This document shows positions 1,137-19,865 of a stretch of DNA of 64,000 nt, piece by piece. Both the position numbers and the translations under genes were made by a program. The notes below the pieces were generated by a model. It worked only from the letters and a program-made list of their open reading frames with translations. It did no database searches and was not told the DNA's origin. The DNA is from Spirochaetota bacterium (GTDB lineage Bacteria > Spirochaetota > Spirochaetia > DTKZ01). The stretch covers positions 1-64,000 of the forward strand of contig JAOABU010000063.1 of the NCBI GenBank assembly GCA_026418195.1, read 5' to 3'. Each line of letters begins with the position of its first letter. The stretch's first letter is position 1.

Positions 1137-4100
1137 ATGCATAACAATACAGTTGAAAGGGAGCTTCATACGGCGATCAAGCCTCCAGTAATACGGATCG
1201 AAGGAGCTAGACAGAATAATCTCAAGAATGTTTCTATAGAGATTCCCATCGGCCAGATGACGGTAGTAACAGGAGTAAGTGGGAGTGGAAAGTCTTCCCT
1301 CGTATTCGATACGGTGTATGCAGAAGGGCAACGACGGTACATAGAAACCTTCTCTGCCTACACCCGGCAATTCCTAGAACGGATGGACAAGCCACGGGTA
1401 GATCGAATCTTTGGGATTCCTCCTGCAGTAGCGATCGAAGCTGCCAACCCTGTCCGCACCTCTCGATCTACCGTTGGTACCATGACGGAAATCAACGACT
1501 ACCTCAAGATCCTCTATGCCCGGTTGTCCACTTTGTATTGCCGATCCTGTGGAAAGGAGGTTCGGAAAGATACCCCTGATTCGATCGTAACTTTCCTGAA
1601 ACAGGACCACAATGGGATTCCCATTCCTCTCCTCATCTCTTTCACGGTCCCTGTTCCTCCTGGCTCGTCCCCTGAAACGATTCGCGAGGTGCTCAATACC
1701 CAAGGATACACCCGTTTCCTCGATTGCTCCAAGGAACTGCTAGAGGTGATCCAGGATAGGATCCTCTTCTCCAAGGATACAGAAAGCCGAACCCGTGAAG
1801 CTCTGGAAACAGCTTTTCGATTTGGGAAAGGTCGCCTTACCGTGTACCGACTTGGAAAAGATCGTACCACCCCCGTTGCCCAATGGAAGTTCTCTTCCGA
1901 TCTCCACTGTGCCGAGTGTGACCTCTATTACCGAGAGCCCTTCCCCAATTTTTTCTCCTTTAACTCACCCTTGGGTGCTTGTCCTAGGTGCCGGGGATTC
2001 GGAAGGATCATCGACGTGGATTATGAACAGGTAATTCCGGACGATACCTTGAGCCTACGGGCAGGAGCGATTAAACCCTGGCAAACAGATAGTTATAAGG
2101 AATGTCAGGAAGATCTAGAATCCTTTGCTAAAAAGCGCGGAATTCCTCTTGATATCCCATGGAAAGACCTAACCGATACCCAAAAACATTGGGTGATCGA
2201 GGGAGAAGGTAGCTGGGAAGAGGGAAAATGGTACGGAATAAAACGCTTCTTCGAATGGCTCGAGTCACGAGCCTACAAGATGCACATCCGTGTCTTATTA
2301 TCTCGATACCGTGATTATAGGATCTGTCCCACATGTCAGGGTGCTCGATTGCAAGAAGAAGCCCTTCTGTGGCGCTTGGGTGGCTCGAAGTCAGAGGGAG
2401 GACTGAATTTTCACGAACTCGCCTCTCTTCCTCTGCATAAAGCAAAAGAGTTCCTCTCCCACCTTACCTTGAGTCCAGGGCTAGAGAATACCTGTGGAAT
2501 CCTCTTACAACAGGTGCTAACACGTTTGACCTATTTGATCGATGTGGGATTGGGATACCTTACACTGGATCGGCAATCCCGAACCCTAAGCGGTGGAGAA
2601 CTTCAACGGATTAACCTCACCACCGCTTTAGGTTCTGCCCTAGTGAATACCCTCTTTGTCCTTGACGAGCCTTCTATTGGACTCCATCCCCGTGACATCG
2701 AACGGCTGATCCGTATTCTCCACCTCCTTCGGGACTCGGGGAATACCCTACTGGTAGTGGAACACGACCCTGAAGTGATTCGAGCAGCGGATCACATCAT
2801 CGATTTGGGCCCTGGTCCTGGGCAACAGGGTGGAAAGGTCGTATTCGCAGGTCCAATAACTACCCTCCTCTCTCATCCAAGCTCCCTCACAGCTAAATAC
2901 CTTCGGGGAGAAAAAAAGGCTTACCTGACTTCTACTGTACAGGATAGGAATCCCCAACGTCAGGATCCTTCTACCTCGAAAGATTCCTACCTATACATCG
3001 AAGGCGCTTCTGTGCATAACTTGAGAAATCTTTCTCTCCGGATCCCTCTCCATCGATTGGTAGTAATCACTGGGGTAAGCGGTTCCGGGAAATCCACCCT
3101 GGTAGAGGAAGTTCTCTACCCCAATCTTGAGAGGCTTCTAGAAAAGAAACAAACGTCCCTCCGGTATGTCCAACGAATCTCGGGTTTTGAGACCATCGAT
3201 CAGGTAGTATTGATAGATCAGAAACCCATCGGAAAATCTAGCCGGTCCAATCCTGCAAGCTATATAGGTGCCTACGATGGGATTCGGAAGCTTTTCGCCT
3301 CCCTTCCTCTGGCAAAAGAACGGGGGTTCACAGCAGGAATGTTCAGTTTCAATTCCGGAAACGGCAGGTGCCCTACCTGCGAGGGCAAAGGATTTGAACG
3401 GGTGGAGATGCAGTTCCTGAGTGATGTGTACCTGCGGTGCCCGGACTGTGATGGGAAACGATTCCGGGAAGAGGTTTTGGAAATTCTATACGAGACAGAG
3501 ACAGGAGACACTCTTTCCATAGCCGATGTATTGGATCTTACGGTAGAGGAAGCCTTAGTAGTATTTAAAGGAAAGAAGGAGATTTCAAACAAACTCGTCT
3601 TCCTTCAAGAAGTAGGACTTGGTTACCTTACATTAGGACAGGGGGTGCCCACGTTAAGCGGAGGGGAAGCCCAACGTTTGAAACTAGCGGGGTATCTTGC
3701 AAACACGAAAGATACCAATAAAAACAATGGAAACCACGAGCAACCATCTTCCCATATCCTCTTTCTCTTGGATGAACCTACCACAGGGCTTCATTTCGAG
3801 GATATTGCAGTCCTTCTTCGAGTATTCCAAAAGATCAAAGAAGCAGGCCATTCCCTTATTGTGATCGAGCACAACATGGACGTGATCGCTTCTGCCGACC
3901 ACATCCTCGATTTAGGACCCGAGGGTGGAGATGAAGGGGGCACTCTCGTTGCACAAGGATCTGTGGAGGCTATCCTTGCTGAACCTAGAAGTCATACGGG
4001 ACGTTCCCTACGAGCCTACTTCAATTCCTTCACTCCTTACTCCGTCCGGAAAGCGCAAGAGGGGATCGATTCAGCGCATGCTAGCACAAGGGAACAGGTA

Positions 4101-6803
4101 GCCGAACCCGTACCTCCTTACCAACCGCACAATTTCTTATCCGCCTCTTATCTGGATAGAAAGATCCTTGTTCGGGGAGCTAAGGAACACAATCTGAAGA
4201 ATATCTCCATTACGATCCCCCTAGATCGTTTCACCGTAATCACAGGGGTCAGCGGTAGTGGGAAAAGTACCCTTGCCTTTGACATTCTGTTTGCCGAAGG
4301 GCAACGGAGGTACTTAGAAACCCTGAACGCCTATGCTAGACAGTTCATCGAAGTGTTACCTAAACCTGACGTAGAGGAGGTATTAGGTGTTCCACCCACC
4401 GTGTCCATTGAACAACACACGAGTCGCGGTGGTAGGAAGAGCACCGTCGCCACCGTTACCGAGATCTATCACTTCCTTCGACTTTGGTTCACTAAATTGG
4501 GTACCTATCACTGCCCCCGATGTAAAGTTCCCATACAAACCCAGACACCAGAAACCATCATGGATCTCGTCCTAAAAACCCTCAACCCAAGGAATGTGGA
4601 TTCCCTCCAGATCTATGCACCTCTTATTATCCATCGGAAAGGGATCTATAAAGAACTCGCTTCCTGGGCAAACAAGCAGGGGTATCCCTTTCTTCGAGTG
4701 GACGGAGAACTGTACCCTACGGATTTTTGGCCTACCCTTTCTAGGTACAGGGAACATTCCATTGATCTTCCCATACCCATAGATCCCCACCTACCCATCG
4801 AGGAAGCTCTACTCCAATCTATCAAGAAAGCCCTCCAACTGGGGAAAGGGAGCGTACGAGTTTCCTTCAAACAGGAGGAACGTTTCTATTCTATTAAAAG
4901 AATGTGCTCTTCCTGTGGAACGAGTCTCCCTGATCCTGATCCCAGGCTTTTTTCTTTCAATAGTAAGCATGGCTGGTGTCCCCGCTGTTATGGAACTGGT
5001 CTGGTTATTTCAGGGTTCGATGAATCACAGACGGGAGAAGAAATTTGGTGGAATGAGTGGTATCAAGGTGAAGAAGTTCCCTGCCCCTCCTGTGAAGGAA
5101 AACGGCTCAGACCAGAAGCTCTTTCCGTAACCTTTAAAGGGTACTCCATTGCTGACATCGCTGCTATGTCAGTTAAGGAAGCGTTTCGATTCTTTTCCAC
5201 CATTCAATTACAAGGGAGAGATCTGGAAATTGGTAAAGAGATTCTTCCGGAGCTTCTTTCCCGACTCTCATTCCTAGAAGAAGTAGGGCTATCTTACTTG
5301 AGTCTAGATCGATCCGCTCCTTCGTTAAGTGGAGGTGAGAGTCGGCGTGTCCGATTGGCCGCTCAACTCGGTTCCAATCTACGTGGGGTTTGTTACATCC
5401 TGGATGAACCCACGATCGGCCTCCATAGCCGAGACAATGAACGCCTGCTTTCTACCTTGCGAATGCTCCAGAATAAGGGGAATACCCTTGTAGTGGTGGA
5501 GCACGACGAGCAAACGATTCGACAGGCCGATCATGTGATCGATCTGGGTCCCGGGGGTGGAATCCTGGGAGGGCAGATCCTTGCTGAGGGGTCTCCCAAG
5601 ACCATCGCTCGGAATCCCCAAAGCAGCACGGGGAAGTATTTGAACCAACCCCTTCTCCACCCCCTCCGAAAGCACCGGCGGCCTGTGAGTATGGACACCC
5701 CTCGACTCTGGATCCGAGGGGCTACTCTCCACAATCTTAAAGGGTTCGATGTTGCCATTCCCCTGAGGAGGTTCGTGGTAGTAACCGGTGTAAGTGGAAG
5801 CGGTAAGAGTACCCTGGTACGTGACGTTCTTCGTACATCCCTCGAACGACTTATCCAAAAGGGAATGCAAAAGCGCTCCTACGAGAAAACAGTATCTACA
5901 TTGAAAACCCAATCTTCAAGCCCCTTTTCCGGATGCCGGAGTATTGAAGGTTGGGAATCCTTAGAAAGAGTGCTGGAAGTAGATCAGACTCCCATCGGAA
6001 AAACTCCGCGATCTTGTCCTGCCACCTACATTGGGTTCTGGGATCCCATTCGGAAATTTTTTGCTGAACTACCTGAATCCCGGGTTCGCGGATATACACC
6101 TAGTCGCTTTTCCTTCAATGTGCCGGGTGGGCGCTGCCCCAACTGCGAAGGACAAGGAATGAAAACAGTTGAGATGAGCTTCTTGCCCGATGCGGAAGTC
6201 CCCTGTGAGGCTTGTGCAGGGAAAAGGTTTGAATCAGAAACTTGTTCTGTCGTCTTCCGGGGGAAATCCATTGCCGATGTTCTTTCCATGAACGTGGAGG
6301 AAGCGGTAAACTTCTTTTCCTTTCATCCCACCGTCCATCATGCATTGAAACTGATGCAGGAGGTTGGCTTAGGATACCTCACCCTAGGTCAACCGAGCCC
6401 CACCTTAAGTGGCGGCGAGTCCCAACGGCTGAAATTGGTAACAGAACTGGCGAAGATCGGCCATGCGGGGAAAAGAGCACCTCCCCACACTCTCTACATT
6501 CTCGATGAACCGACTATCGGTCTCCATACAGCGGATATTGAGAAACTCTTAACTGTGTTGCATCGGTTGGTAGACGCTGGACACTCACTCGTGATCATCG
6601 AACACAACCTTGACCTAATTGCAGAGGCTGATTGGATCATCGACTTGGGTCCTGAAGGAGGAGAGGAAGGGGGCTACCTTGTAGCAGAAGGGAAACCTGA
6701 GGATCTAGTGACGGGTATGGGTATACACACCCATCCACTCGGGCATGATTCTTACACACGACACTACCTCACTTCGAAACTCCAATCACCCCTTGTCCCT
6801 TAA
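1137..6803 (+). CDS. uvrA: Excinuclease ABC subunit A, tandem-duplicated (double-length UvrA)
   Basis: 1888 aa; four Walker A motifs (GVSGSGKS), four LSGGE signatures, and two full sets of UvrA zinc-finger CxxC pairs; second copy starts near '[21 protein letters not shown]'. Confidence 0.95.
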
Positions 6804-8111: not shown

Positions 8112-8795
8112 ATGAAGCTCTACTTGAAAGAAAAGATCTTAAATCTCCCTACAAAGGAACGTCCGAGAGAAAAACTCTACTTCCAGGGAGTAGCTGCTCT
8201 GTCAGACGCGGAACTTCTGGCCATCCTAATTGGTTCTGGGAATCGAACAGTGAGAGTTGAAAAGATCTCCTCCCTACTGCTAGATCTTTTAGACCGTTCC
8301 AATGGAAACATTACAGTCGATGCGTTGATGAAGATTCCTGGTGTTGGGAAGGCAAAAGGGACTCTTATCCTGGCTGCACTGGAGTTTTCCAGGCGATTCC
8401 TGTGTCCTGAGCGTAAACGAATAGGGTTCCCTAGGGATGTGCTTCCCCTAGTGTCCCATTATGCCAATCGCAAACAGGAATACTTTCTTTCCATCTCCCT
8501 TAACGGTGCTCATGAGGTACTGGCCATTCGAGTAGTCTCTATCGGATTGGTCAATCGGTCGTTGGTACACCCAAGGGAAGTGTTTGCCGACCCCCTACAG
8601 GATCGAGCAGCTGCGTTGGTCATTGCTCACAATCACCCTTCGGGGAACCTCGACCCCAGCCTAGAAGACAAGCAGGTAACCATGAGGCTTAGAACCGCAG
8701 CAGAACTTCTAGGAATCGTCTTTCTAGATCATATCATCTTCAGTGAAGAGGGGTACTACAGTTTTCTAGAGCACGGTGAATTAACCAGTCAATGA
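8112..8795 (+). CDS. radC: RadC family JAB-domain protein
   Basis: N-terminal 'RPREKLYFQGVAALSDAELLAILIGSG', HhH 'IPGVGKAKG', JAMM 'AHNHPSGNLDPSLEDKQVT'. Confidence 0.95.
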   Translation: MKLYLKEKILNLPTKERPREKLYFQGVAALSDAELLAILIGSGNRTVRVEKISSLLLDLLDRSNGNITVDALMKIPGVGKAKGTLILAALEFSRRFLCPERKRIGFPRDVLPLVSHYANRKQEYFLSISLNGAHEVLAIRVVSIGLVNRSLVHPREVFADPLQDRAAALVIAHNHPSGNLDPSLEDKQVTMRLRTAAELLGIVFLDHIIFSEEGYYSFLEHGELTSQ

Positions 8796-9337
8796 ACAAT
8801 GATCTTTTTAAAGACTTCCAGGATCATTTCGGTAACTTTCTGTGCATCTGCTCGCGGAACCCGAGCTTCCTTCCAGATGGATTTCATGAAATAATCCCGC
8901 ATTCCCTCGATAATATCGTCGGTCATATAGAAAATATAGGAATAATTCTGACCAAAGGATTTTAATACGGTGAAGGATGTGTAGGTCATCACAGGTTCTT
9001 TACCAATCATGATTCGGTCCTGTCTGGCACTGGTGTAAATGTTCAGTTCCCTAAGTCGATACGGAATACGCTGAAAATTGTTCCTATAAGCGGGTTCAAT
9101 ATGTTTGTTCGGATAGTTTGCAGGTTCTACCAGCACGAACACTTTCTGTCCATCCGCTTGAAACACGAGACCTTCCTCGTTGGTATAGATATCCTTCACA
9201 TTACTGAAAGATATGATCTCGTACTTCGTGTACGTGGAAGTGTCATCGAAAAACGCACTCACTATATACCCACCTGCAGTAGGTAGTTCTTTCTTGTTGT
9301 AGGCCTCAAAAAGTTCTTTCACTATCGCCATACACAA
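8789..9337 (-). CDS. Hypothetical protein
   Basis: 182 aa ORF filling the gap; 7 bp convergent overlap with radC. Confidence 0.65.
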   Translation of the reverse strand: MCMAIVKELFEAYNKKELPTAGGYIVSAFFDDTSTYTKYEIISFSNVKDIYTNEEGLVFQADGQKVFVLVEPANYPNKHIEPAYRNNFQRIPYRLRELNIYTSARQDRIMIGKEPVMTYTSFTVLKSFGQNYSYIFYMTDDIIEGMRDYFMKSIWKEARVPRADAQKVTEMILEVFKKIIVH

Positions 9338-9456: not shown

Positions 9457-10263
9457 ATGACTTTACCCGAAGCGCTTTCCTTCATGCACATCAACCTTCC
9501 TACCACGTTGACAGACCTAGAAACTACCTATAGAAGCCTTATTAAACAATACCATCCAGATCGAAACCAAGACCGTCTGCAATGGTCACACGAAATGACC
9601 CTTAGACTCAATGAGGCATACACATTGATCCGAGATGTTCTCACTAAGAATACCGTAGAAGCAGAGGAGACGGAAGAGGAACCCAATACTCCATCACCAA
9701 TCTACACAGAGCTCCAGAAAGCTTGGCAGAAGATCGAGAACGGAATCCATCTGTTTTATACCTACGGGTTAGAGAATCCCCATATTCGACAGGAGGGGCC
9801 TTTCCACATCAAGTTTATCCTTGCTCAGAAACAGATCAAGCAGGGGAAAAAAATCCTGGAACTATATGAACAAAAACCACTCCTTCCTGAGGATCGAGAA
9901 GAACTTAGCCTGCAGAAAAGCTTCTGCGAAGCGTTCCTTCAAAACATGCGGATACAGAAAACCTTTGTGGCAGATGGATCCATCCACCACAAAGCGTACA
10001 AGCACTACTACAATGGGAGTCGTCTTCTCGATGGATTCTTAAAAAAAATCCTATTTCCAGAGGATTACTCGAACCTGATTCTGCCCCCCAAATGCTCCAC
10101 CCTTTGCCAACAGGAACTTCTCACGGTCCTTCTTCATTACCATCAAAGCACATGGGTAGGTGAAGCCACGATCAAACTGGCCTTATTGGAAAGCTTTTTG
10201 AACCTAATGAACTTCCGAAAGGAACGGGATTCTTCCCACCGCTCCTTTTTCTATCGGTTCTAG
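9457..10263 (+). CDS. J-domain (DnaJ-like) protein
   Basis: N-terminal J domain with HPD motif 'YRSLIKQYHPDRNQDRLQWSHEMTLRLNEAYTLI'. Confidence 0.85.
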   Translation: MTLPEALSFMHINLPTTLTDLETTYRSLIKQYHPDRNQDRLQWSHEMTLRLNEAYTLIRDVLTKNTVEAEETEEEPNTPSPIYTELQKAWQKIENGIHLFYTYGLENPHIRQEGPFHIKFILAQKQIKQGKKILELYEQKPLLPEDREELSLQKSFCEAFLQNMRIQKTFVADGSIHHKAYKHYYNGSRLLDGFLKKILFPEDYSNLILPPKCSTLCQQELLTVLLHYHQSTWVGEATIKLALLESFLNLMNFRKERDSSHRSFFYRF

Positions 10264-10342: not shown

Positions 10343-12955
10343 CTAAGTACCCTTTTGGGAAAGATTGTACTGAGCAATAGCGAGCTTTGCGATGGGGATC
10401 CCATAGGGTGAACAGGAAACGTAATTCATTCCTACCTGCTGTGCAAAAGGGATGTTCTCCGGCTCCGCTCCATGTTCTCCACATAGACCCAGCACAATGT
10501 CTGGTCGCACCAATCGAGCCCGCTCCGACGCAATCTTGATCATTTCTTTCACCTGATCGCCCAATACCTTGAATGGGTTCTGGGGAAGTAGGTCCATTTC
10601 GTTGTAATCGGAAAAGAAGTTGTTGAAATCATCCCGGGAAAGTCCATTGGTAGTTTGGGTTAAGTCGTTGGTTCCGAAGCTGAAGAACTCGGCATATCGG
10701 GCAATTTCGCCAGCCTGGAGGGCAGCGGCAGGTAGTTCGATCATGGAACCAACCCGATAGTGGATGGGTTCTTCGAATCCAAACTGTTTTCGTACTTCCT
10801 CTTCGATATCTCGGATCCCTACGATAGTTTTTCCTTCGATCTTTTTTCCATTCCGGATAATCTTTACCTCGGAAGCGGTCATGACCACAGGAATCATGAT
10901 TTCCGGAATGACATTCACCCCTTCCTTCTTCAAGCGATACGCCGCTTCGAAGATGGCCCGTACCTGCATATTGTAAATCTCTGGGTACGAAATAGCGATA
11001 CGAACCCCTCGATGCCCTAACATGGGGTTTACTTCCCGAAGCAAGTCACACCGCGCTTTCACTTCTTCGGGTGTCATCTTTCGCTTCCGTTTTTGGAGGT
11101 ATTTCACAAAGTCTGCCATTCCTTCCTTCGTGTGAGGAAGGAACTCATGTAAGGGTGCATCGAGAAGTCGAATCGTTACCGGGAACCCTTCCATGATTTT
11201 AAAAAGCTGATAGAAGTCTTCGGATTGGTCTTTCTTCAATTCTTCTAGCACTGCTAATCGCTCTTCCTGGGTCTCCGCAAAAATCATGTAACGGAACCGA
11301 TTGATCCGATCCTCGTTGAAAAACATATGTTCAGTTCGGCACAAACCGATTCCCGGCGCTTTGAACAACCGGGCTAACTGGGCGTCTTTCGGTTGATCCG
11401 CATTGGCATGTACGTCGAAGCCATAGATGTACTTCTGCACGATTTCCAGAAGTTCCAATAAACCGGAATCTTCCGGCGTTGGTTTCATAAGGGTCCCTTT
11501 CCCTAAGTAAATAGCAGGAGGATCGTAATAAGGGACGTTCAACGTGATCACATCACCCTCTTTCACCAAGTTTCCTGCTATTTTCATTCCCTCTTTCGTG
11601 AACTCTATCTCAGGGTATACCAGAGCTACTTTTCCAAGGCTTCGAGCCACTACTGGCGCATGGGACGCATATCCCCCCTCTGAAGTTAGAACTCCTTTGG
11701 CTACTTCAATGGCTTTCACGTCTTCGGCAAAGGTAGCAGGCATCGCCAGTATGAAATCTGTAGATTGGTTTGTCTGAACTGCCTGTCGATAGGCTTTTAG
11801 AAGGGCATCGGTAGAGAAGTATACTTTTCCTATAGCTGCTCCTACAGCACCCGCAATTCCTCCGGTAACTTTCGGATACTTCTTGACCGACGTAGGATCC
11901 AAGGTAGGATGAAGTATCTCCGAAAGTCTTCCAGGTTTAATCGCTTTGATGACAAACTCTTCATCTACGATCCCTTCGTTCAATAGATCGAGGAGACTCT
12001 TGATTTCCGCCTGTGTAGATTTGTTCGCTGCAGGTTGTTGATCAATAATCCAAAGTTCCCCATTTTCTACCGTAAATCGCACCCGTCGGATCTCCTTGAA
12101 CTTCCGTTCCAGTTGTTTGCCAATTTCCTGTAAACGGTTCAAAATCCTAGGTTCTATCTTGGCTATGGGAGTCCCTTCCTTTTCCCGTTCATCAAAGGCT
12201 TGGGTGAAGAACTCCCCCATCAAAGCATTTTCTCCGCTGATGATATTGTGGGTAAAGAAGCTGCCAAAACAACTCTTCTCGTTGAAATTTCCAAACACCA
12301 TCGTCTGGATTAGAAGGGCTGAATCTTCACTGGTAGTGTTTTCCTCTATGACCTTTCGGAAGAGGTTGATAACGAACATGAGCTGCTGATACGCATCTGT
12401 ATAGATTTCTTCTGGATAGAGGGACCGGAAGTTTTTAAAAGCCCGTTGAAGAGCAGCTTTCGTTTCTCCGTCCAACGCCTTACGATACGCTTTCAGTTTG
12501 GAAATCCGGTCCTTGTCAGTCTGAGTGAGAAGTTCCAAGTCTATGATGTGTTGAATCACGTTACAATACTCGTGGTATGCAAACTTTTCACCCACAAAAG
12601 CTCCGAACCCCTCGATGGTTGAATCGCACAATCCAATGTTGTGTATGGATTGTGTATTCACGATGTTAAGCATGGGGCTCTCTACTACCTTTACCAGCAG
12701 GGGATTCGAGGGATCGTTAAACCCTTTCCCAAAGGCTTTCTCTGTCTTGTCCAAAGGTTCCTTCAGGACCTCCCATACCTTATATGTCGTTCTAGGTAAG
12801 GATCGTACTGTAGCATTGGGAAGGATAAAACCGGGAGAGGTAGGGATATTGAGGGTAGCCAATTCAACGATCCGCCTTCCTCGATTTCCAATAGCTTCGA
12901 TAGCCTCCGGGCTGTCATCGTATTGGCCGTTACAGAAAAAGTAATAATCTGCCAT
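10343..12955 (-). CDS. Pyruvate phosphate dikinase-like PEP-utilizing protein with divergent nucleotide-binding half
   Basis: Intact swivelling-His motif 'GGYASHAPVVARSLG' and PEP/pyruvate TIM-barrel motifs 'GLCRTEHMFF', 'VTIRLLDAPLHEFLP', 'FFSFGTNDLTQTTNG', 'GLCGEHGAEPE..VSCSPYGIPIAKLA'. Confidence 0.85.
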   Translation of the reverse strand: MADYYFFCNGQYDDSPEAIEAIGNRGRRIVELATLNIPTSPGFILPNATVRSLPRTTYKVWEVLKEPLDKTEKAFGKGFNDPSNPLLVKVVESPMLNIVNTQSIHNIGLCDSTIEGFGAFVGEKFAYHEYCNVIQHIIDLELLTQTDKDRISKLKAYRKALDGETKAALQRAFKNFRSLYPEEIYTDAYQQLMFVINLFRKVIEENTTSEDSALLIQTMVFGNFNEKSCFGSFFTHNIISGENALMGEFFTQAFDEREKEGTPIAKIEPRILNRLQEIGKQLERKFKEIRRVRFTVENGELWIIDQQPAANKSTQAEIKSLLDLLNEGIVDEEFVIKAIKPGRLSEILHPTLDPTSVKKYPKVTGGIAGAVGAAIGKVYFSTDALLKAYRQAVQTNQSTDFILAMPATFAEDVKAIEVAKGVLTSEGGYASHAPVVARSLGKVALVYPEIEFTKEGMKIAGNLVKEGDVITLNVPYYDPPAIYLGKGTLMKPTPEDSGLLELLEIVQKYIYGFDVHANADQPKDAQLARLFKAPGIGLCRTEHMFFNEDRINRFRYMIFAETQEERLAVLEELKKDQSEDFYQLFKIMEGFPVTIRLLDAPLHEFLPHTKEGMADFVKYLQKRKRKMTPEEVKARCDLLREVNPMLGHRGVRIAISYPEIYNMQVRAIFEAAYRLKKEGVNVIPEIMIPVVMTASEVKIIRNGKKIEGKTIVGIRDIEEEVRKQFGFEEPIHYRVGSMIELPAAALQAGEIARYAEFFSFGTNDLTQTTNGLSRDDFNNFFSDYNEMDLLPQNPFKVLGDQVKEMIKIASERARLVRPDIVLGLCGEHGAEPENIPFAQQVGMNYVSCSPYGIPIAKLAIAQYNLSQKGT

Positions 12956-12963
12956 AATTAACC

Positions 12964-13899
12964 TCAGAACAGATCTAGAACGCGATTCACCGCGCCCCGA
13001 AGGAATACTTCAAACCTTGGGCTTGCGCCTTCATACAGGTACTTCTGAAGCTTAGCAACATCCTTTATGTTATCCCCTACCACACTGATCATGATGGGAG
13101 TGCCATGCTTCACTTTCCCCCACTTGAAGAGCGCATTGATGTCATTGATCCGCTCGTTCTCGTACCAGATCAACACATCCAAATCAGGATACTTCGCTTT
13201 ATAGCTCTCGATGATTCGTTTCCACGCCTCGACATTTCCATTGTGGAATAGTTCGTTGGTAACTAGGACTCCATACTTAGGGGTCATGCGTTTTTTTACA
13301 GAGGGCCCTTTGGAAGCTTCCACAGTAGGAGAAGTCTTCGGAACCCGCTCCTCGATAGGGGCTACTTCCTTCCTTTTCGGGGAGGTATACTCAGGTCGTG
13401 TCGAAATTTTACCTCCATCTAATAGGGTAATTGTATCCTTTACCGCAGTATCCAATATATTACCATCCACCGAATCGGATCCTACTGGGCCCGCATACAC
13501 CACCACCAATTCATCCTTTATGAGAGGAAGAGCTTGTTCCCAATGCTCGGCTTTCTTAGGGTTGATGAGGAACGTTCCCGCTTGGGGAGAAGCATACATC
13601 AAGACGAGTTGGATTCGGTCCCATGGACGAAACACAGAAAGGAGGTCCTTTACATCGTCCCAACCTCTCTGAATATTGTGGGATCTGAACACATAGGAAA
13701 ATTTATCTACCAAAAGGGCACTTAGGATCGTTTTTACCTGTTCCCTTCGTACCTCTCCGCTCTCCAATGATTCGTTCAATAGATCCGCCAAGTTTGCCCC
13801 TTCTTGGATCTCCCCCACATACCGATTTACCAGTTTAAAATGGCGCAAAGCCGTGTTAAAACCGGCTTTGCGCGCAAGAAAATTCAGTTCGTTTTCCAT
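12964..13899 (-). CDS. Conserved spirochaetal hypothetical protein of the CfpA cluster
   Basis: 311 aa ORF 8 nt upstream of the PPDK-like gene and 3 nt downstream of cfpA. Confidence 0.75.
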   Translation of the reverse strand: MENELNFLARKAGFNTALRHFKLVNRYVGEIQEGANLADLLNESLESGEVRREQVKTILSALLVDKFSYVFRSHNIQRGWDDVKDLLSVFRPWDRIQLVLMYASPQAGTFLINPKKAEHWEQALPLIKDELVVVYAGPVGSDSVDGNILDTAVKDTITLLDGGKISTRPEYTSPKRKEVAPIEERVPKTSPTVEASKGPSVKKRMTPKYGVLVTNELFHNGNVEAWKRIIESYKAKYPDLDVLIWYENERINDINALFKWGKVKHGTPIMISVVGDNIKDVAKLQKYLYEGASPRFEVFLRGAVNRVLDLF

Positions 13900-13902
13900 A
13901 GG

Positions 13903-15873
13903 TTAGAGCTCTTGTAACTCGTCAGACCCGCCTCGCTTTTTCGGGGGTGTTACATCTGCTTTCCCCTTCACCTCTTCTTTGGATTCCTCTCCCGTCGCAT
14001 ATTTCGGGGTTTCCTTCGGAAGGGTTTTCACGATAGGCTCGTCAATTTCAGAGGTGAAGTGCTGCGTAATATCTTCCCGCACAGTAGATCGTCTGCGCTT
14101 GAAGGTAGCGAAGGCAGCATCCTGGAATCCTTTGGAAATTCCATGGAGGAACTCGTTCAACACGTTAGCCATCTGCATCAATGTGTATTTCTTCCGTTTA
14201 ATGCTGGTAATATTGATATCCAGAAGGAGCCCAGGCTGGATATGGTACGGATTGATCAAGTAATCGAACGCCTCGAACTCTTTTTCCAGGAAATCAACCC
14301 TCTGATCCAGGATCACTCGAGTCTGGGGATTCTGGTACCCATAGATGATTTTGATCTTTTCCCTGCACTTAGCCAGCATTTTCTTGTACAGGTTCTTCTC
14401 GTACAGGTAGGTTCGGTTCAGTCGTTCTACATCGGTCTCCTCTGCTTTAATTAAAGTGATCTCGTTCCACACCTTTTCGATTTCTTCGTAGAGTGGTTCG
14501 GTGCTTTCTTTTTTCGCTTTCGCTCTCCGGATTCTCCCCGCTACCTTTCGGCTTAAATCTTCGAAATCGTTCACCTTGAAGCTGGACTTGCTGCTCTGAT
14601 AAATCGCTTCTACTACGTCCCACAGATGCTGAATTTCGTTCTTGAAGGACTCCATCTGTTTGTCGTAGGCGGCTTGTTCCTTCTGTAGTTGTTCCGCATC
14701 GTAATACTTGAGGCGAATCACATACCGTTCATCGGGAAGGTTTGCTTCATTCACATCCTCATACTCGCGAATGATCAGTTCCCTTGCATTCTTTAAGTTT
14801 TCAATGTACTGGTAGCCCATCTTGCTGGTATCGAGGATCGAGGTAAGGGAGTTCACCGCTGTGTTGAATCCACGATTTCGGATATTCTCCAGATCTACGA
14901 TCTTCTTTAAGTTTTCCCGAATATTGAGGGGATCGAACTCCTTTGGATCGATCTCTGCTCGAAGTCCTTCGATTTTATCCATTAGGTTCTTAGCAAGGAA
15001 CGTGTACCGTTTGGACTTTTCATTCTCCACGTCGTCATCTGTATAGTTGGGAACCCGTTTCATTTTCTCAAAGAGGAGCTCCGTATCCTGCAACTCTTCC
15101 TTTCCTTCATCCACCAGCTGCTCCTGTAGAGCTTCCACTTCTTTTTCGATGAAGTTGATGATGGTTCGGGAAATTTGATCCTTGATGATATACTCTACCG
15201 TTGCCTGATACTGGAAAATCGGGCTAATCAACTCGGAATCAAGGATGTTCACGGATAACTTTACATCCGTTACGGTTTTGGGCTTGGTCAGGTTGTCTTT
15301 GAAAGCACACTTGACCACGGAATATGCATTCTCACCCCGGATGAAAGCACCTACATCCGTCTTCTGCCTCAACAGCGAGTTCGTCTCGTTCTCTAAGTCG
15401 TTTAACCCTCTCTGGATATGACCATGGAGGTGGCCGTACATGTTCACGATGGATTTTTCGATTTCACCCGTATTGAACTTGTCTGCACCGGCAATCTGAT
15501 CCAGCATCTCGGCGATCTCTTTGGGAGAATACCGAGCAAGAGTTTTGCTTTCCTCTTTGTCGATGAAGTTGCGGATCTTCTTTACCATCTCGTCTTCTGC
15601 GGTGACGATGTACCGGTTGAACATATTTTGGTAGTTCTGGTTGAAGTAGTTATAGAGTTTCTCCTTCAACCCCCCCATCACGTCCAACTTTTCCAATACT
15701 TCTTTGGGGAGTTTTGTCTGAATTACATTTAGAATATTCTCTGTTTCTTCCCGGATAACTTGTTCGAATTCCTCTTTCTGCCTTCGGCCTTCCTGAGCTA
15801 AACTGTTCCTGGACCCTACAGCCGATGGTTTAGTAGGATGAAATACATTCGGGCTCCTGGATATATCTGACAT
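13903..15873 (-). CDS. cfpA: Cytoplasmic filament protein A
   Basis: '[38 protein letters not shown]' and coiled-coil body recognised as treponemal CfpA; ATG at 15873 with upstream GGAGGAG RBS (the longer ORF starts at 15906). Confidence 0.88.
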
Positions 15874-15973
15874 ATACAACTCCTCCCTAAAAAATTTCTG
15901 GGGCAATCCCCGAGTTTCCTAATACAGTATAGTACATCTTCAAAGAAAAACAATACAGTACCTTTAACTGCTA

Positions 15974-18637
15974 CTACCTATACACCACCTCCTTCTTTTT
16001 ACTATTCAAATATTCCACAAACGCTTTGCAGTGGGACTCTTGCTGAAGCCCCGCAATAACTCCTTCCAGTTCAGACTTTTTATCCTTCGGGACTACCGAT
16101 TCTAATGTAGGACCTAGGTAGAGTTTCAAGATCCCAATCCCTTTTGCCACTTCCTGTTCGATGTATCGGGTGGTAATACCCCAGAGTGTATCCCCACGTT
16201 TCACGACATAAAGGGAAGAATCGGGTAGTTTGAATTGGTTGCCAGGATAGATCCAGTTAGGATCCGGCCGCAAATCTTTCGGCGAGTCCAATCGTCGGTA
16301 CCCATTAGCGTCTGCAATCTCGTTTACCAGGTAGAACACATCCATCACCGTGATCGAAATATTCCCAAGGGGAGGAATATTTGCCGTATAGGTAGAAGGA
16401 AATGCATCTACTTCCTTTTTCTCTTCCGCTCCTTTCTGTGCGATAGGACTCTTTTGTACAGGTGCATCTTGTTGATCCCGCCCTAGTTGAGCCTTCCCCT
16501 GAACTTGAACTTCTTTGGGTCCCTCGGAAGGTTCTCCCGCCTTTAAAAGAATATTCCCTTTTCCTATGGGTTCATCTGTTTTAGTAGTGGTGGATGTCTT
16601 ATCTTCCTCTTGTTTCAGGGATTCGCTTTTTCCCGAAGTACCATTAGGTGCTATAGATTGTTCGTGTAGCGTTTGGGTAGTAGACGTACTTCTTCCTATC
16701 CCATGAGGAAACAGATCGAATTGCCATAGGGCAACCATTAAACCAGAGAGGAATAGCCCTCCTAATAGGTACAGACCCCATCCCCGAATGAATATCTTCT
16801 GGTCTTCGGAAGATTCCCCTTTTGAAACGGCTCCCCCTAGTTCATCCTTTGAAGGTCGCATGGGGAAAGGGGGCGTTGGAGATGAAAGACTCGAAGGGGT
16901 TGCCAGCGAGGGGGTAGACTTTGGTTGGACAAGCTGTTGGGTAGAGGGTTGCGGGGATCGCGGCTCTGTATGTGAAAGATTCGATGTTGGAGATTGGAAG
17001 CTCGCTGTTGTCGCTGGTTGAGTTCCCACGGCTCTCTTGACCCGCTTAGGGGGAACCTGATGAAGGTGTTCCAGAAACCTTAACAAACGGTCCCGTTCCT
17101 GTACGAAGAACGTCTCCTCCTTTAAGGAGGTTCGTATCTTATCGATATTCTCGATCGATTTATTAGCCTGTAAGAGTTTTAAAGGAGTGAGACGCCCTTC
17201 GATTTGATAGAAGAGATGCATCCCGTTGGGGAACACCCAGAAATCCCCTACAAAGGGAATACACCCTTCTCGATCTTCAGGAAGCTGATACAAGAAAGAG
17301 TTCTTGGCCTTCCTCCTCCATCGTTCCCACACTGTTCCCTTGTTTGAAGGATCAATACTTCTAGAGAGAGTTTCTAAATTCCAAATCAGGTAGGGAATTA
17401 CAGCCTTCATTTCATTTAAAGGAAGTTCCCGAATCAGGAGAGGCTCCAAAGATTCAAAAGAAGATATACGAGGAGAGCCTTTTTTCCATTGTTCCTGGAT
17501 TAGGTTCAACGTGGAAACCATCATTCTCCACCAATCCTGTTCCAGTAGGTTTCCCACCTCAGCACAATTCTTGGCTATATTCACTCCATACGTAGCAAGT
17601 AGAGTTAAAGGAGAAGGAAGGGGTGAGGAATGAAACCGATAAGGTATGTTTCCTAAGATTCTTGTACCGATGGGTAGTCCCTTGTTTTCCAATGCTTTTT
17701 GTAAGTTGTTTCTCTCATGGGAGAAACCAGAAGAAAGATTGAACGCAATTCCAAAGGGAGAAGGAAACTCGACCGATCCTCCTTCCCCACAGAACCTGAA
17801 TCCCTGGAGATGGAAACACCCTGATGCATCAGGTTCAATCGCAAAGAGGGAAGTATCCATTCCTGAAAAAAGATTTATAATGCTTCGAAGTTGTTCGATC
17901 CGGTGGGAAGCTACCCGAAATTCCTTCTTTATAGCTACCGAGCGTTTCAACTTTTGCAGGATTCCTTCTTCAAACTGTTCTTCGATGCACCACTGGAGCA
18001 TGTCTGGATCGATCCCTGCTCGGGAAAGGGACCAGAGGAAGTCTTTGGGCACATGCACTACCCCCAATCGACCTTCATGAAAGAAATAGATTTGTTGCCC
18101 GAGAAGAATAAACCCTGGATTCTGGAATACCCTGGCCAAGTATCGTAGAGGGTTATCCTTGACAAAGGAACTTACCCGTTCTGCAAGATAAACGAAGTGA
18201 AGATCCTCCGCTTCCCGCTGCCTGAGGTTGAAAAGTTCATCCCCATTGTGGTGTACATGAAGATTCCCATTCTTAAAAAAGAAAACGATAGATTTCCCTT
18301 TTTGGGGAGGAGATTCTACAGTTTCGTACTCGAACTCGGCCACTGGAAGGTTTTTTTCGTTTAAAAATTGCTTAAGCCTTTCGATACGGACAGGATCCCC
18401 TACGAAACGGGTTTCCCCATTCAGGGGTAATTCTACATTCTCATGTTCTAGAAAGGGGTTTCCTGTATAGTTATCCGTTACGAGAACTGTAGATACATAT
18501 TTCTTGATTTCTTCTGGCAACTTGGCGCTGTTCCCGATACGCAAGAAAGGTCGATACTCCGTGTGGGAACTCCCTAGATAGATGAGGTAACATTCACCAT
18601 CGATATGGAAAACCCGTTCAGCCGGATTTTCTATCAT
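15974..18637 (-). CDS. Large single-TM protein with C-terminal LysM domain
   Basis: TM 'GWGLYLLGGLFLSGLMVALW', low-complexity linkers, LysM 'YVVKRGDTLWGITTRYI'. Confidence 0.75.
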   Translation of the reverse strand: MIENPAERVFHIDGECYLIYLGSSHTEYRPFLRIGNSAKLPEEIKKYVSTVLVTDNYTGNPFLEHENVELPLNGETRFVGDPVRIERLKQFLNEKNLPVAEFEYETVESPPQKGKSIVFFFKNGNLHVHHNGDELFNLRQREAEDLHFVYLAERVSSFVKDNPLRYLARVFQNPGFILLGQQIYFFHEGRLGVVHVPKDFLWSLSRAGIDPDMLQWCIEEQFEEGILQKLKRSVAIKKEFRVASHRIEQLRSIINLFSGMDTSLFAIEPDASGCFHLQGFRFCGEGGSVEFPSPFGIAFNLSSGFSHERNNLQKALENKGLPIGTRILGNIPYRFHSSPLPSPLTLLATYGVNIAKNCAEVGNLLEQDWWRMMVSTLNLIQEQWKKGSPRISSFESLEPLLIRELPLNEMKAVIPYLIWNLETLSRSIDPSNKGTVWERWRRKAKNSFLYQLPEDREGCIPFVGDFWVFPNGMHLFYQIEGRLTPLKLLQANKSIENIDKIRTSLKEETFFVQERDRLLRFLEHLHQVPPKRVKRAVGTQPATTASFQSPTSNLSHTEPRSPQPSTQQLVQPKSTPSLATPSSLSSPTPPFPMRPSKDELGGAVSKGESSEDQKIFIRGWGLYLLGGLFLSGLMVALWQFDLFPHGIGRSTSTTQTLHEQSIAPNGTSGKSESLKQEEDKTSTTTKTDEPIGKGNILLKAGEPSEGPKEVQVQGKAQLGRDQQDAPVQKSPIAQKGAEEKKEVDAFPSTYTANIPPLGNISITVMDVFYLVNEIADANGYRRLDSPKDLRPDPNWIYPGNQFKLPDSSLYVVKRGDTLWGITTRYIEQEVAKGIGILKLYLGPTLESVVPKDKKSELEGVIAGLQQESHCKAFVEYLNSKKKEVVYR

Positions 18638-18716: not shown

Positions 18717-19865
18717 ATGATTCGCTGCGAGAGTTCCTACAGAAAAATTATTCCCATTGCCAGTGGCAAGGGAGGAGTAGGGAAAACCGTACTAGCTGCC
18801 AACCTAGGAATTGCTCTGGGAAAAGCAGGCTTCCGAACGATCTTGGTAGATCTAGATCTCGGCGGTTCTAACCTCCATTCTGTATTGGGCATCAAGAATA
18901 AATTCCCTGGTATTGGTAACTTTATCTCTGGGAAAACTCTTTCTTTCAAAGAGATCATCCTGCGCACCGAATACCCAAACCTATTCTTTATTCCGGGGGA
19001 TGTTCTGGTACCGGGTGCAGCAGATATCAATTACCTTCAGCGAAAGCGTATCCTAGACAACCTTCTGAAATTGGAAACTGATTACATACTTCTCGATCTT
19101 GGTTCAGGAACCCATTCCAGCACTCTGGATTTTTTTCTCAGTTCCAATGCAGGAATTCTGGTTGCCGTTCCCCAGGTGCCTTCCATTCTAAATACCTATA
19201 GCTTTCTGAAGAATGCTCTTTTTCGATTACTTTCTCGGATCTTCGCCAAGCAGAAGGAAATCTCAGAATACCTGAAATCCCTCCAAAAGGAAGCACAACC
19301 CAATTCCATTCCCGGCACAGGTAAGATCCTACAGGAGATAGAACGGATGAACCCCGAAGCCTGCGCTACCGCCAAACAGATATTGCAGGCCTTCAAGCCT
19401 CACCTGATTGTAAACATGGCTAAGCATCCTGATGATCTAGCTATCGTGGAGAGTTTAAGGAACCTGGTGCAAAAGAATTTGGAAATTCCCTTCGGATGTC
19501 TGGGAATCGTGTTTCGGGATGATCAAGTTCATGAATCCATTGAACAGATGCGTCCCCTTCTACACCTAGCTCCCGAACGACTTGTATCGAAGCAAATTCT
19601 CCGGATGGCAGAAAAAATCCTCCAGTCGAAGAACTTTCCTGATTTACCCCTCGATCTATCCCAGTACAAGGATTCTTTCGAACTTGCCGAGATTGAAGCC
19701 CACTATGACCTAGCAGAAACTACCAGTACCGAAAACGGCAAGAAACAGGAAGAAGCATTGACTCCCGAAGAGTTCCTAACTGTACTCACTGCCCAACAGA
19801 AGAAAATCAACGAACTCCAGGGCACTATCCGAATGCTCACCCTACGAGGAAGACAAGAACCTTAA
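18717..19865 (+). CDS. MinD/ParA-family P-loop ATPase
   Basis: 'IPIASGKGGVGKTVLAANLGIALGKAGFRTILVDLDLGGSNLHSVLGIK'. Confidence 0.9.
   Translation: MIRCESSYRKIIPIASGKGGVGKTVLAANLGIALGKAGFRTILVDLDLGGSNLHSVLGIKNKFPGIGNFISGKTLSFKEIILRTEYPNLFFIPGDVLVPGAADINYLQRKRILDNLLKLETDYILLDLGSGTHSSTLDFFLSSNAGILVAVPQVPSILNTYSFLKNALFRLLSRIFAKQKEISEYLKSLQKEAQPNSIPGTGKILQEIERMNPEACATAKQILQAFKPHLIVNMAKHPDDLAIVESLRNLVQKNLEIPFGCLGIVFRDDQVHESIEQMRPLLHLAPERLVSKQILRMAEKILQSKNFPDLPLDLSQYKDSFELAEIEAHYDLAETTSTENGKKQEEALTPEEFLTVLTAQQKKINELQGTIRMLTLRGRQEP

Follow-up and report, generated by a model that had tools for sequence, protein, structure and literature searches.

A spirochete PPDK relative with replaced ATP-site residues and an intact PEP site, almost always found together with the cytoplasmic-filament protein CfpA

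Introduction

Pyruvate phosphate dikinase (PPDK, EC 2.7.9.1; TIGR01828) works in two halves, with ATP/Pi handled at the N-terminal site and PEP/pyruvate at the C-terminal site, and the two are joined by a swivelling phospho-His domain (PMC5371819, PMC8100219). Residues R95 and E324 of the Flaveria enzyme, which are here equated with R92 and E323 of the C. symbiosum enzyme, have been described as directly involved in ATP binding (PMC5507339). Enzyme I of the PEP:sugar phosphotransferase system (PTS) has a PEP-binding domain and a phospho-His but no nucleotide chemistry, that is to say, PEP phosphorylates the His, which passes the phosphate to a protein. It has also been reported that VadK (Rv1127c) of Mycobacterium tuberculosis is a PPDK relative turned into a regulatory phospho-His protein (PMC13400623).

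In the spirochetes, CfpA is the protein of the cytoplasmic filaments, and the filament was described as of single-protein composition (PMC3398590), although a title cited in the same paper refers to novel bridging and anchoring components seen by tomography on treponemal filaments. In Treponema denticola, TDE0842-0844 (cfpA, a conserved hypothetical gene and "pyruvate phosphate dikinase, putative") are repressed together (PMC3914990), and TDE0844 and CfpA are bands 1 and 3 of the 16 major envelope proteins (PMC3931704). In T. pallidum, TP0746 is described as the enzyme that turns PEP, AMP and diphosphate into pyruvate and ATP (PMC10013896), and its transcript level is read as pyruvate metabolism (PMC8525777).

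The window analysed here is a stretch of 64,000 nucleotides of a Spirochaetota bacterium (GCA_026418195.1, contig JAOABU010000063.1, positions 1 to 64,000), in which one gene encodes an 870-aa PPDK paralogue, hereafter PPL. A sequence-only reading of this gene had proposed that its ATP-grasp half is apparently dead while its PEP half is intact, that it may have become a PEP/pyruvate sensor, phosphotransfer partner or structural factor, and that annotating it as functional ppdK could mislead metabolic models of treponemes. The observation is confirmed and is found to be family-wide, and the interpretation is supported, although activity was not measured. What that reading missed is the context that suggests the role, namely the cfpA operon, the neighbouring ORF311 and the near-strict co-occurrence with CfpA.

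Organisation of the cfpA-ORF311-PPL operon

PPL starts with ATG and is the third gene of a tight run, in which cfpA comes first, ORF311 follows after a gap of 3 nt, and PPL follows ORF311 after a gap of 8 nt (Table 1). CfpA was recognised by NF040882 with 1120.3 bits against a cut-off of 500, whereas ORF311, the orthologue of TP0747/TDE0843, has no Pfam or NCBIfam match. Promoter and terminator scans of the operon were at chance level. The DnaJ-domain protein, the uncharacterised 182-aa protein, the 887-aa protein and the ParA-type ATPase listed in Table 1 keep company with the cfpA operon in many spirochete loci.

Table 1. Coordinates of features in the 64,000-nucleotide window
Feature	Positions	Strand	Remarks
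UvrA-like ORF	1137-6803	+	Single 1888-aa ORF that looks like two UvrA proteins fused head to tail (repeated UvrA-type ATP-binding and zinc motifs, read by eye)
Uncharacterised protein	8789-9337	-	182 aa
DnaJ-domain protein	9457-10263	+	
PPL	10343-12955	-	870 aa; altered nucleotide domain, intact phospho-His and PEP domains
PEP/pyruvate-binding domain of PPL	10352-11458	-	About residues 500-868; all active-site residues kept
Codon of PPL H432	11660-11662	-	Phospho-His position, C. symbiosum H455, in GGYASH
Nucleotide-binding (ATP-grasp) domain of PPL	12026-12955	-	About residues 1-310; V91 for R92, R293 for E323, R25 for K22; D305 or Q306 at Q335
ORF311	12964-13899	-	Immediately upstream of PPL; proposed partner
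C-terminal domain of ORF311	13000-13290	-	Residues 204-300; predicted order b-a-b-b-a-b-a; most conserved part
Codon of ORF311 H219	13243-13245	-	Invariant; just before predicted helix 220-236, the place of HPr His15
N-terminal alpha/beta domain of ORF311	13414-13698	-	Residues 68-162; predicted HPr-like order b-a-b-b-a-b-a; no conserved His
cfpA	13903-15906	-	Cytoplasmic filament protein A
Protein with LysM-like C-terminal stretch	15974-18637	-	887 aa
ParA-type ATPase	18717-19865	+	

Residues of the nucleotide and PEP sites

In the window protein, VSVRSG reads VKVVES, FTRNPATGE reads FTHNIISGE and EFTIERGKLYMLQTR reads RFTVENGELWIIDQQ, while GGYASH, CRTEHMFF, RLLDAPLHEFLP, GTNDLTQ and VSCSP are intact. 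PPL proteins and canonical spirochete PPDKs were then aligned with C. symbiosum PPDK (1KBL), first with 26 and then with 89 PPL homologues. In these, R92 is V/L/I/A or, in two, a gap, R135 is F/N/Y/G, D321 is not conserved, and E323 is reversed to Arg or Lys in 87 of 89 (T in the other 2), whereas H455, R561, R617, E745, N768, D769 and C831 are kept in 89/89. In contrast, 31 of 31 canonical spirochete PPDKs keep everything. That is to say, all 7 His and PEP residues are kept in 89/89 PPL, against at most 2 of 7 nucleotide-site residues, so that a chance or one-off divergence is rejected.

The sequence-only reading needs some correction here. Of the residues it named as replaced, Gln335 and Arg337 depend on where a one-residue gap is put: without a gap in the beta-hairpin, Q335 falls on D/E/N and R337 is often R/K, but with a gap an invariant Gln (Q306) falls on Q335. 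Moreover, the change of K22 to R is conservative, and an invariant Lys (K89), two residues before the R92 position, may face the same side and could partly stand in for R92. Therefore, the site is not a canonical ATP/Mg site, but ligand binding of some kind is not excluded.

Pfam finds the PEP-binding domain (PF02896, E 2.8e-66) and the mobile His domain (PF00391, E 5.6e-10) in PPL, but PPDK_N (PF01326) is not detected, while it is found in both other PPDKs of the genome. TIGR01828 matches over the whole length at 650.8 bits, below its cut-off of 843.45. Nevertheless, PPL keeps the predicted three-domain PPDK fold: the AlphaFold model (pLDDT 86.9, pTM 0.83) matches PPDK structures best in Foldseek (5jvj_A, E 1.4e-62, TM 0.78-0.79), and Enzyme I structures come next after PPDK and PEP synthase (E 1e-9 to 1e-15).

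Evolution of the PPL family

PPL is monophyletic, with support of 1.0 on both halves, and the stem branch of the clade is 1.98 on the nucleotide domain against 0.78 on the His+PEP domains. Within PPL, the PEP and His domains are as conserved as in canonical PPDK, while the nucleotide domain is much less so. However, the nucleotide domain is still constrained: against a same-genus homologue its dN/dS is 0.017, and that of the PEP domain is 0.005 (dS is near saturation, so only the direction is safe), and it carries clade-specific invariant residues (S90K, G94S and Q320R). Since the ORF is intact, dN/dS is very low and the replaced residues are conserved in their new form, a misannotated or decaying pseudogene is rejected.

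Nor is PPL the only ppdK of this genome. Two other ORFs, on two other contigs, carry VSVRSG and the other canonical residues, PPL is 37-38% identical to them, and pyruvate kinase is present, so the cell does not need PPL for that reaction. The PPDK/PEP synthase regulatory protein (PF03618) was tried as a marker of real PPDK, but it was absent from all 25 spirochete genomes tested, including those with canonical PPDK, and was thus uninformative. In addition, the best match to PPL in genomes of one spirochete family is much weaker (E about 1e-77) than that of other canonical PPDKs, suggesting a further divergent PPDK relative there.

Co-occurrence with CfpA and ORF311

Among 198 genomes sampled across the Spirochaetota, ORF311 was found in 84, PPL in 82 (at least 807 bits, against at most 526 for canonical copies) and CfpA in 85; all three occur in 81 and none in 112, and every PPL genome has ORF311. 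In several genomes cfpA lies on another contig than ORF311-PPL, yet all are present. Genera of one family differ as blocks, two of them having all three, while no genome of two other genera appears in any of the three lists. Co-occurrence is partly shared descent, which inflates any significance test, so none is leaned on. One possible exception (contig C312, 4453-7347) is a spirochete genome (80% complete) with CfpA and a divergent ORF311 (31% identity) but no PPL found. In 80 loci with named records, nearly all labelled as spirochetes, PPL is the next recognised gene downstream of ORF311 in 79, and the contig of the 80th ends first; in one family of the sampled genomes, extra genes separate ORF311 and PPL.

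Treponema pallidum and Treponema denticola

A closed genome of 1,139,633 bp has a 904-codon PPL frame next to ORF311 and a 678-aa CfpA. Read with 901 aa, residues 869, 655 and 501 of its PPL are A, P and E, and CfpA residue 31 is C, which are exactly the reference residues of published TP0746 and TP0748 variants (PMC10013896, PMC3373638). So TP0746 is PPL. In this genome it is the only PPDK homologue apart from an Enzyme I-like gene, and pyruvate kinase (PF00224) was not found, while it was found in 23 of the other 24 genomes searched, so that the annotated glycolytic role of TP0746 is doubtful; the warning about metabolic models applies most to this organism. PEP carboxykinase and an oxaloacetate decarboxylase/pyruvate carboxylase-type protein are present, which may be another possible route.

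In T. denticola, the equation of TDE0842-0844 with this operon rests on gene order and annotation; a genome of 2,843,201 bp, apparently the size of T. denticola ATCC 35405, has the same order with a canonical PPDK elsewhere. These genes offer a cultivable and genetically tractable system. Among the papers searched, which did not include most subscription papers, none was found that links this gene family to the filament or questions TP0746.

Predicted structure of ORF311

The C-terminal part of ORF311 is its most conserved part (NELFHNGNVEAWK...LFKWGKVKHG). The AlphaFold model (pLDDT 86.0) shows two alpha/beta domains, residues 70-160 and 209-299, both in the order b-a-b-b-a-b-a of HPr. H219, invariant in 19/19 and then in 52/52 sequences, lies directly before the first helix of the second domain, where HPr has its phospho-His, but it stands in HNGN instead of HARP and the HPr Arg17 is lacking. 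Foldseek returned many HPr structures with probability up to 0.99 and TM (target) up to 0.71, but the best E-value was only 0.05 and the matched domain was not identified. Support at the sequence level is weak: the HPr-register profile alignment (hhalign) gave P 0.022, with 2 of 100 column-permuted controls as good, and PF00381 was not matched in 19 members up to E 10. In addition, TP0747 gives a partial ubiquitin-family match (E 0.013) that starts only at the helix; since in the model one main strand precedes the helix and a helix follows the last strand, the HPr order fits better, although this is not settled. On balance, the HPr reading seems slightly more likely than not.

Possible function of PPL

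The explanation favoured here, which is about as likely as not, is that PPL is an ancient PPDK paralogue that lost the ATP/Pi half-reaction and works, like Enzyme I, as a PEP-dependent phospho-histidine protein. It is speculated that PEP binds the intact C-terminal domain and phosphorylates H432 of the swivelling domain, while the altered N-terminal domain no longer hands the phosphate to AMP/PPi but serves as a docking surface for another acceptor. This is the simplest use of a conserved PEP site and His without nucleotide chemistry. The adjacent ORF311 is the most likely acceptor or adaptor, and CfpA is the natural target because all three travel together, so that the system would act on or be built into the CfpA filaments, coupling filament state to the PEP/pyruvate level of the cell. 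The residue replacement, linkage and distribution are established, but no activity, phosphorylation or interaction has been measured, so that the phosphorylation of H432, ORF311 as acceptor and the filament as target are inferred; envelope co-fractionation is not direct binding, and K89, and Q306 under one alignment, could partly rebuild a ligand site. An extended form of this view, that spirochetes carry a cytoskeleton-dedicated phosphorelay from PEP to PPL to an HPr-like ORF311 to the CfpA filament, and that the syphilis agent therefore has no PPDK and closes glycolysis another way, is not excluded but remains unlikely on present evidence.

Among the alternatives, the one that survives best, though it is considered rather unlikely, is that PPL is a filament-bound pseudoenzyme, a structural bridging or anchoring component in which PEP/pyruvate binding and the His are kept for allostery or stability, with no phosphoryl transfer to a partner. 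Its abundance and co-fractionation with CfpA in T. denticola (PMC3931704), the near-strict co-occurrence with CfpA and the reported bridging and anchoring components agree with this, but the perfect conservation of the phospho-His and all PEP-site residues in 89/89 homologues is more than a scaffold needs, and the single-protein composition described for the filament also speaks against it. A less probable alternative is a PEP/pyruvate sensor, reversibly phosphorylated at H432 by PEP, whose conformation reports the PEP:pyruvate ratio to ORF311/CfpA by binding, without onward phosphoryl transfer; the intact PEP half and swivelling His domain and the altered but constrained N-terminal domain fit it, but it does not explain the invariant His and HPr topology of ORF311, if those are functional. 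The weakest alternative, a still working dikinase or a kinase with a changed donor or acceptor that uses other residues (K89, Q306) and other nucleotides or PPi, agrees with the invariant K89, R290 and Q306 and would be useful in T. pallidum, which shows no pyruvate kinase and no other PPDK, but is improbable because E323 is reversed in 87 of 89, R92 and R135 are lost in all, organisms with canonical PPDK and pyruvate kinase keep PPL too, and T. pallidum has the other possible route mentioned above.

Comparison with known systems

PPL shares with PPDK the whole domain layout and fold, the phospho-His and all PEP/pyruvate-site residues, but it differs in the replaced nucleotide-site residues, in the score below the TIGR01828 cut-off, in the missing PF01326 match and in being tied to cfpA and ORF311. 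With Enzyme I it shares the PEP-binding domain plus phospho-His, the proposed flow from PEP to His to a partner protein, and an adjacent partner gene as in ptsH-ptsI; however, it has the PPDK domain order (N-terminal ATP-grasp remnant, central His domain), PF05524, the Enzyme I N-terminal domain, is not among its Pfam matches up to E 1, TIGR01417 gives 110.9 bits against a cut-off of 341.7, and the genome has a separate Enzyme I-like gene and a separate HPr. PPL may work like Enzyme I without being one. VadK shows that a PPDK relative can become a regulatory phospho-His protein, but as a mirror image, since VadK keeps the ATP and His domains and lacks the PEP domain, while PPL keeps the His and PEP domains and has a degenerate ATP site. 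As for the CfpA filaments of treponemes, PPL and ORF311 share the operon and species distribution of CfpA, with co-response and, for PPL, co-fractionation in T. denticola, but CfpA is the filament protein itself, whereas PPL and ORF311, named here as two candidate partners, were not described as filament components in any paper found; a PEP-driven phospho-His protein tied to a cytoskeletal filament has, to our knowledge, no counterpart.
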